Shown here: positions 9,663-12,548 of the stretch, piece by piece
Numbering within the stretch: position 1 is the stretch's first letter
Layout: every line of letters starts with the position of its first letter
Virus record (IMG/VR): IMGVR_UViG_3300019871_000004
Location: 1 to 43,627 of that record
Direction: 5' to 3' (one strand)
DNA from: a virus
Length of the DNA: 43,627 nucleotides
The notes under the pieces: generated by a model
What the model saw: the letters and a program-made list of their open reading frames with translations, nothing else
What the model was told of the DNA's origin: nothing
Databases searched by the model: none
Program-made: the position numbers and the translations under genes

Positions 9663-10063
9663 GGGCGACTGCGCATCGCATGGGGCTTTGGACGGTACCC
9701 CGGTAAAGGATCCCGGACCTTCGGATACCGCATGAAATCCGGATGGGATCATCAAGGGGCGTCATGACATTGCCCTCAGAACGCCTTACAGAGCGCCGGA
9801 AATCCCTGCTAGCCTGCATTTGCGTTTGTTTAGTGGACTGACGCACCCGCGGCGTCGATCTCCTCCAGAGGTCGGCGCCGCTTCAGCGAGGGCGAGCCGG
9901 GCAAGAAAAAAGCCCCCCGGATCCCGAGAGGCTTTTTTCAAATCGCGGTCTGTACTTGTGCCCTACCGTCGCGCGGCGTCAAATTTCCGGTTGTGGCGGA
10001 GCGAGCTCCACGCGAGGAATGCCCAGAAACCGCCCATCGTGGCGATGATGATCAGCGCGCCGA
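9663..10063. other. 400-bp intergenic region
   Basis: No convincing gene. It holds a CAGTCCACTA box (9831-9842) followed on the minus strand by AACGCAAATG, similar to the box-plus-start region of the gene at 10628, and a bidirectional terminator at 9905-9938. The minus-strand frame after the box lacks a ribosome site and runs into the 9153-9662 gene, so it may be the remnant of a lost cassette. Confidence 0.5.
9905..9938. terminator. Bidirectional intrinsic terminator
   Basis: A stable GC hairpin (AGCC... GGCT, with inner CGG/CCG) is flanked by A6 on the left and T6 on the right, so it can stop transcription from both directions. It separates the plus-strand gene ending at 9662 from the minus-strand cluster ending at 10064. 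Confidence 0.85.
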
Positions 10064-10628: not shown

Positions 10629-10642
10629 TGCGTTCCCCTTCG

Positions 10643-10654
10643 TAGTGGACTGAC
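10643..10654 (-). repeat. CAGTCCACTA box (also at 9831, 11185, 11686, 12279)
   Basis: TAGTGGACTGAC on the plus strand recurs at 9831-9842, 10643-10654 and 11185-11196, with an inserted base at 11686-11698 and a two-base variant at 12279-12290. On the minus strand it reads GTCAGTCCACTA and lies 12-40 bases before the ATG of minus-strand genes, directly before the ribosome site in three cases. It resembles start-associated sequences of some actinobacteriophages. Its role, as promoter part, protein site or recombination boundary, is unknown. Confidence 0.75.
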
Positions 10655-10670
10655 TGCCGCTTGAGCGGCA
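10655..10670 (-). other. Hairpin before the 10628 gene
   Basis: TGCCGC-TTGA-GCGGCA forms a perfect 6-bp stem with a 4-base loop, between the CAGTCCACTA box and the T-arm-like element. It is too short and lacks a T-run to act as a terminator. It may protect or process the mRNA between cistrons. Confidence 0.5.
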
Positions 10671-10672
10671 AG

Positions 10673-11168: not shown

Positions 11169-11204
11169 GGTGCTTACCTTTCGTTAGTGGACTGACTGTG
11201 AAAG

Positions 11205-11244
11205 GGGCGGCGCAGGATCGAACCTGCGCGTTGACCATCCGCCC
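11205..11244 (-). ncRNA. T-arm-like minihelix RNA element 2
   Basis: On the minus strand, starting at the G of the stop codon at 11246-11244: GGGCG, a 10-base bulge GATGGTCAAC, a 7-bp stem GCGCAGG/CCTGCGC with loop TTCGAT, then CGCCC pairing with GGGCG. The outer helix, bulge length and TTCGAT loop match element 1, while the inner stem has different but still paired bases, so the pairing rather than the sequence is kept. The loop is one base shorter than a standard T-loop. Confidence 0.7.
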
Positions 11245-12248: not shown

Positions 12249-12311
12249 CTCGAAACCTCCAGTTTCGTAATGGGTGCGTAGTGGACTGCCACGGCAATGT
12301 AATGACAATCC

Positions 12312-12548
12312 ATGAAGGTGTCAACCCCCGTAGACACATCGGACCCGATCTTGTACCTGCTCCCACCCGGTCAGACCATGGCAGACGTGCTCAAGAGAGA
12401 TGCCGAACTCCTGCAAAGCGAGGGAATCGACATCGGCCTCACTCCACCATCGCCGCCGCAACCGGAAGCATCCCCGGTACCCATGCCAACCAGAGAAGGA
12501 CAGAGCCAAGGGTTGGATGTACGGAGTAGAGCGAAGCGCAGTTCGTAA
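12312..12548 (+). CDS. Small proline-rich protein, unknown
   Basis: 78 residues. An ordered N-terminal half (SDPILYLLPPGQTMADVLKR) is followed by a low-complexity Pro/Ser/Arg C-terminal half. The ATG has no ribosome site and lies six bases after TAATGA, so the transcript could be leaderless. The TGTAATGACA element before it (12299-12308) recurs at 13576-13585. It is coded divergently from the minus-strand cluster and may be a regulator. It could be spurious. Confidence 0.4.
   Translation: MKVSTPVDTSDPILYLLPPGQTMADVLKRDAELLQSEGIDIGLTPPSPPQPEASPVPMPTREGQSQGLDVRSRAKRSS

Follow-up and report, generated by a model that had tools for sequence, protein, structure and literature searches.

Mimics of tRNA are known at the ends of plant viruses and in a mammalian lncRNA. 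The plant viral tRNA-like structures can be cleaved by RNase P, and mascRNA is freed from its transcript by RNase P together with RNase Z. Minihelices are also accepted by RNase Z. Bacterial RNase P cleaves model substrates that consist of an acceptor stem, a T-stem and a T-loop, and the features read by the enzyme are the stacked acceptor/T-stem, the T-loop and the 3' RCC (PMC11143913, PMC11221534, PMC12710915). The latter pairs with G292-G293-U294 of RNase P (PMC11221534; PMC12710915). RNase P also cuts several phage RNAs, i.e. phage M3 RNA, the C4 antisense RNA of P1/P7 and the T4 gene 32 mRNA (PMC11143913).

Two minihelices in a leftward operon

The window, the whole stretch of 43,627 nucleotides analysed here, derives from an IMG/VR virus record; a BLAST search of it against named phages gave no match. 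A structural scanner found exactly two tRNA-like elements in the window (Table 1), where 0.04 are expected by chance under a dinucleotide model. None of 300 simulated windows contained one with the GG of the connecting strand in place. Element 2 runs from 11244 down to 11205 on the minus strand (UAG|GGCGGAUGGUCAACGCGCAGGUUCGAUCCUGCGCCGCCC), and in UAGGGCGGAUGGUCAACGCGCAGGUUCGAUCCUGCGCCGCCCC (minus strand, 11246-11204) the G of the UAG stop doubles as the first base of the hairpin. Its connecting strand GAUGGUCAAC, present on the 5' side only, includes a D-loop-like AUGG; that of element 1 is AAUGGUUUUG, and the strands of the window copies contain AAUGG/GAUGG. An earlier, sequence-only reading had claimed that the two copies are identical in outer stem and bulge length, that the inner stem was altered on both strands yet still pairs, and that both copies start at the stop codon of a minus-strand gene and end a few dozen bases before the next ATG. 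Each of these claims was found to be correct: both copies have GGGCG/CGCCC and a bulge of 10 nt, GCCGGG/CCCGGC is replaced by GCGCAGG/CCUGCGC, and the elements run from the G of UAG to 36 nt (element 2) or 44 nt (element 1) before the ATG. Absent from that reading was the further difference that element 2 has an inner stem of 7 instead of 6 bp and a loop of 6 instead of 7 nt. The minimum free energy is -21.4 kcal/mol for element 2 (z -2.5; 4 of 200 shuffles equally good) and -20.7 kcal/mol for element 1 (z -1.7). The two window copies alone are weak evidence, and it is their relatives that are decisive.

Table 1 Features around the two minihelices of the window
Feature	Coordinates	Strand	Remarks
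Likely promoter of the leftward operon	12280..12330	-	TTGACA ... TACATT; judged by eye
ORF, 141 aa	11244..11669	-	UAG stop gives first base of element 2
Element 2, tRNA-like minihelix	11205..11244	-	acceptor GGGCG/CGCCC, T-stem GCGCAGG/CCUGCGC, loop UUCGAU
Trailer of element 2	11169..11204	-	CUUUC...GAAAG pairing possible; AGUCAGUCCACU motif
ORF, 69 aa	10959..11168	-	downstream of element 2, ATG (11168) 36 nt beyond
ORF, 83 aa	10711..10962	-	UAG stop gives first base of element 1
Element 1, tRNA-like minihelix	10673..10711	-	acceptor GGGCG/CGCCC, T-stem GCCGGG/CCCGGC, 7-nt T-loop UUCGAUU
Trailer of element 1	10629..10672	-	hairpin UGCCGCUcaAGCGGCA abutting the element; AGUCAGUCCACU motif; Shine-Dalgarno AAGGGG
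ORF, 120 aa	10266..10628	-	downstream of element 1, ATG (10628) 44 nt beyond

The N-terminus of the 83-aa ORF resembles a signal peptide. An open reading frame starting from the ATG in the bulge was set aside: in element 1 this frame runs to the ATGA of the next gene, in element 2 it does not, and the ATG is missing from most relatives. A transcription terminator was also rejected, as no U-tract lies behind the elements.

A scan for the window subtype returned six contigs. With about 70% nucleotide identity, contig L288 is collinear to the window, and two elements lie in its corresponding leftward operon. One of these carries GGACG/CGUCC where the window has GGGCG/CGCCC, and likewise starts on a UAG stop. 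In a set of 13 window-type sequences, which includes element 1 and leaves out element 2, 100% of the cells were paired and 6 of the 11 pairs were changed on both sides. Two-sided stem changes, pointed out earlier between the window copies, are found in the collinear relative and the window-type set as well. The motif AGUCCAC precedes start codons in L288 as in the window.

Other repeats were observed in the same operon. On the minus strand, AGUCCACU recurs at window positions 12287, 11694, 11193, 10651 and 9839, just ahead of start codons and near the promoter; it is kept in L288, and these repeats look like stoperator or start-associated sites. Further gaps of the operon are occupied by another class of element, namely long hairpins of about 15 bp or more (window 12011-11942 and 11746-11670, minus strand), which also start on a stop codon; along the operon gaps they alternate with the mini-tRNAs. 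Long hairpins with similar GACUG...UGGUC stretches lie near 9968, 9503 and 8634 of L288.

The trailers bear on the possibility that the elements control translation of the next gene, with the 3' acceptor strand or the trailer pairing with the Shine-Dalgarno sequence and the folding or cutting of the minihelix setting initiation. Indeed, CCCCUU of element 1 can pair with AAGGGG, and CUUUC of element 2 with GAAAG at the Shine-Dalgarno sequence, which would place the latter inside a hairpin. However, the relatives inspected do not conserve this pairing, which also follows no evident rule in Streptomyces phages, and translational control is considered improbable.

Pairing and covariation in the family

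IMG/VR was first scanned with a fixed acceptor, which returned 102 stretches. In a second scan only part of the connecting strand (GGCA) and the T-loop were fixed, with no constraint on the acceptor or on most of the T-stem. At least 120 stretches with the element pattern were obtained, compared to 0 contigs when the second scan was repeated with a scrambled T-loop. The T-loop sequence was preset by the search pattern. A first alignment (A1) of 38 sequences, mostly picked from the first scan, had 98.8% of its cells paired versus 82.7% after shuffling. Copies matching the pattern of the second scan were deduplicated at 85% identity, yielding a free-acceptor set of 45; all five acceptor pairs were formed in 38 of these, versus 7.4% with the 3' strands re-dealt. 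A second alignment (A2), of 55 sequences including both window copies, had 95.0% of cells paired (60.0 +/- 1.5% shuffled) and a covariation score of 0.826 (0.179 shuffled); 9 of the 11 pairs had changed on both sides. RNAalifold recovered the same fold from A2 unaided.

The pairing excess in A1 and A2, the re-dealt acceptors, the RNAalifold fold and the empty search with the scrambled T-loop together provide strong evidence, at the level of sequence comparison, that selection acts on the RNA structure of the elements. The sequence-only reading had taken independent changes on both sides of a stem as the sign of a functional RNA and had named a single-sided disruption without effect, together with lack of conservation elsewhere, as a refutation. 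The A2 values support the sign, and copies occur on many viral contigs. A chance hairpin was rejected on the covariation, the GG of the connecting strand, the window scan and the scrambled T-loop control.

Element 2 appears less typical than element 1. A covariance model (R3) built from the other subfamily only, with window-type sequences excluded, ranked element 1 first in the window (E 0.026) and element 2 only fourth (E 1.9). On this ranking element 2, with its six-base loop, is judged to be a divergent family member.

The same covariation weighs on the proposal of an element acting as DNA, i.e. an attachment site, a recombination site or a repressor stoperator. T-arm sequences commonly serve as attachment sites, and intergenic stoperators occur in Streptomyces R4-like phages (PMC10276819). 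However, covariation in both stems is not required of a DNA site, genomes carry many different copies, and R4 has a stoperator system yet no element in its early region. This proposal is hardly tenable. A stoperator or attachment site was in fact rejected as a candidate, since the stem sequences vary by paired changes and are not conserved as DNA, and since the early region of R4 is without elements.

tRNA-like features and position at gene boundaries

The sequence GG-UUCGA-(N)N-CC of the elements is the tRNA T-arm pattern with the signature GTTCGA, and the criterion of an acceptor stacked on a T-stem with T-loop GTTCRA is met, both stems covarying. Most copies have a 5-bp acceptor and a 6-bp T-stem, hence 11 bp but not the 7+5 of tRNA. 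The connecting strand, 11 nt long in most copies, has GG at position 4-5 in 260 of 312 copies, a count that includes loci from the second scan, which were selected with GGCA. By analogy with the tRNA elbow this GG could dock on the T-loop, the contact itself being inferred. An anticodon arm or cloverleaf is absent, as only 10-12 nt lie between acceptor and T-stem. With a T-arm, a stacked acceptor, a GG strand and no space for an anticodon arm, the elements would therefore correspond to the top half of tRNA plus the D-loop contact, and that they mimic tRNA is well supported by their sequences. Neither the tRNA elbow (GG + TTC), nor the spread across other viruses, nor the involvement of RNase P had been part of the earlier reading. 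No tRNA was called in the window, and the two cases in which an ARAGORN call overlaps an element are artefacts. A real tRNA or a tRNA-fragment attachment site was rejected: there is no anticodon arm, genomes have several differing copies and the 5' strand is paired. ARAGORN called no tmRNA, and no tag reading frame or pseudoknots were found. With Rfam 15 at gathering thresholds, no matches were obtained in the window or on the elements of seven copy-bearing loci. The nearest model at a permissive limit was mascRNA-menRNA (RF01684), at 24.8 bits versus a threshold of 42.5.

The placement after a stop codon, described earlier for the window copies, proved to be general. Counting stop codons of same-strand ORFs of 50 codons or more, 70% of 335 copies start within 20 nt past a stop, versus 9.5% of random control positions. 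The commonest distances are 6, 7 and 8 nt, and -1 in the window subtype. Hairpins are observed at both edges: the excess hairpin energy flush with the element amounts to -1.43 +/- 0.17 kcal/mol on the upstream side and to about -3.5 +/- 0.25 kcal/mol on the downstream side, and falls to background once the tested segment is shifted by 4-10 nt. The downstream hairpin is present in every group tested. The upstream hairpin was found in the Streptomyces, Mycobacterium/Gordonia and large IMG/VR groups, and was not significant in the window subtype (-0.43 +/- 0.39) or in three archaeal copies.

A stable fold directly past stop codons might also serve, without being cut, as a stabiliser or insulator, a 3'-UTR structure that blocks exonucleases or separates the translation of neighbouring genes. 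The long plain hairpins that fill the remaining gaps of the operon, in alternation with the mini-tRNAs, agree with such a role. However, a plain hairpin would then suffice, and the T-loop, the GG and R73-C74 remain unexplained. An uncut structure is thought rather unlikely.

The likeliest function of the elements is that of an RNase P processing site, because they supply parts that RNase P reads, the 3' RCC being present only in part. An acceptor/T-stem stack with T-loop, as needed by RNase P substrates, is present. In the free-acceptor set N73 is A or G in 97%, N74 is C in 95% and C75 is found in 11%; most bacterial copies have R73-C74. From the observed structure, covariation, tRNA signature, post-stop position and edge hairpins we propose, as a moderately probable reading, that the elements are RNase P sites that split polycistronic phage mRNAs at gene boundaries. 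Cleavage, the identity of the enzyme and any effect on, or benefit for, mRNA stability are inferred, and there are no cleavage, RNA-seq or 5'-end data. A tRNA mimic embedded in a polycistronic phage mRNA at a gene boundary would have kept only what RNase P reads, i.e. an acceptor/T-stem stack of 11-12 bp, the T-loop and the docking GG. The upstream gene would be translated to its stop codon, upon which the element could fold, and host RNase P would cut where the element begins on its 5' side, either at the stop codon or a few bases past it. A long early transcript would in this way be converted into shorter messages. The downstream message would begin with a blunt paired 5' end, resisting decay, and the upstream message would in many phages end in a small hairpin expected to hold off 3' exonucleases. 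RNase Z or another nuclease might make a second cut at the 3' edge.

Several observations fit an RNase P site poorly. The acceptor/T-stem is 5+6 instead of 7+5 bp, conservation covers only RC and not RCC(A), the window subtype having C73-U74, and at N-1 A or C predominates over U. In the window type the upstream hairpin fails to reach significance, tandem arrays in apparently non-coding DNA are not explained by gene punctuation, and the relative R4 manages without elements in its early region. The main rival to RNase P is RNase Z or another tRNA enzyme reading the mimic, with RNase Z acting at the 3' edge, or the CCA-adding enzyme or EF-Tu marking or protecting 3' ends. Synthetases and EF-Tu accept minihelices (PMC11221534), of the two flanking hairpins the one at the 3' edge is the stronger, and the window copies lack R73-C74. 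However, CCA is not encoded in the elements. The conservation of C74 also speaks against RNase Z, as a CCA that follows the discriminator acts as an anti-determinant on the bacterial enzyme. This rival is regarded as unlikely.

Distribution and comparison with known systems

The elements occur in 1 to about 14 copies per genome, in phages of Streptomyces, Mycobacterium, Gordonia and Microbacterium and, in small numbers, in a Riemerella phage and haloarchaeal viruses. The Streptomyces phages Lika (7 copies) and Endor2 (8-9) have one in most early-operon gaps, mostly 6-18 nt past the stop and 33-52 nt ahead of the next start. Most early-operon gaps are likewise occupied in the Mycobacterium phages Damien (about 8) and Send513 (11-14); where a range is given for a single phage, it reflects scanner versus model counts. 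About 8 copies were found in Gordonia phage Cafasso, 2 each in Microbacterium phage Roman, Riemerella phage GRAP2 and haloarchaeal virus HRTV-23, and 1 in HHTV-2. No model matches were obtained in phiC31 and Gordonia phage Rabbitrun, and no elements in the early region of R4, a Lika relative with a nearly gapless early operon. Cellular genomes seldom carry the elements: within one order, 2 of 150 genomes had one cluster apiece, and other cellular genomes had single clusters.

The presence of as many as about 14 copies and the virus-biased distribution are compatible with a decoy role, in which the elements would titrate host defences or toxins that are directed at tRNA and act on the acceptor or T-arm. 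A decoy would not need the fixed short distance to the stop codon, however, and the elements miss the anticodon arm, the target of most tRNA-directed nucleases. It seems very improbable.

A six-element cluster lies between genes of a Gemmatimonadota chromosome (L276:6610-10286), and PHROGs gave no prophage identification for the Gemmatimonadota or Amycolatopsis copies. Tandem mini-tRNA arrays with copies about 110 nt apart were seen in L277, L037, L004 and L073; between copies they are G-rich, with GGCNN-like repeats, and apparently non-coding. In all, 71 spacings between successive elements are below 160 nt. Send513, rich in mini-tRNAs, also carries a GOLLD RNA (L269:13305-13765). Elements have twice been mis-called as tRNAs (a tRNA-Arg at L266:8379-8461 and a tRNA-Ala at L277:7881-7974): the only GenBank-annotated tRNA of the Endor2 stretch and a tRNA-Ala in an Amycolatopsis contig are such elements. 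The elements account for stray tRNA annotations in such phage genomes, and a covariance model has now been obtained for a family missing from Rfam.

No published description of the elements was found in the open-licence full texts searched, supplements excluded. They are a case of tRNA mimicry, a kind already known, and have not previously been described in the literature searched. RNase P occurs in both bacteria and archaea. We give about even chances to the wider hypothesis that bacterial and haloarchaeal tailed viruses share these undescribed 40-nt mini-tRNAs and that host RNase P cuts their transcripts there, in the manner of the tRNA punctuation of mitochondria but with non-decoding mimics. 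If true, the recurrence of such a minimal mimic across unrelated phages would imply that tailed viruses draw on the tRNA-processing machinery of the host to organise their mRNAs.

The nearest Rfam model, mascRNA/MEN-beta, shares the tRNA-like shape inside a longer transcript. It is, however, a mammalian lncRNA element, whereas the phage elements are viral, intergenic, multi-copy, shorter and below the family threshold. The plant viral 3' tRNA-like structures are likewise viral tRNA mimics, but are found at genome 3' ends with CCA and a pseudoknot, while the phage elements are internal and repeated, without CCA. The tRNA-like domain of tmRNA has a comparable acceptor, T-arm and stemless D-loop; the elements lack both a tag reading frame and pseudoknots. 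Stoperators and start-associated sequences of actinophages are also short repeated intergenic sites in one orientation, yet they are DNA sites conserved in sequence, whereas the elements vary in sequence and conserve pairing. Phage M3, C4 and T4 gene 32 RNAs resemble the elements as non-tRNA phage transcripts that are RNase P substrates, cleavage of the elements being inferred. To our knowledge these three are single cases, without a T-loop minihelix repeated gene after gene. The RNase P model substrates AT1 and pATSer combine acceptor, T-stem and T-loop in one hairpin with cleavage at the 5' edge (PMC11143913, PMC11221534), but are synthetic and without a D-loop-like strand, while the phage elements are natural. 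Mitochondrial tRNA punctuation also places tRNA-shaped elements between same-strand genes; there they are working tRNAs, whereas the phage elements have no anticodon arm and their cleavage is unproven.
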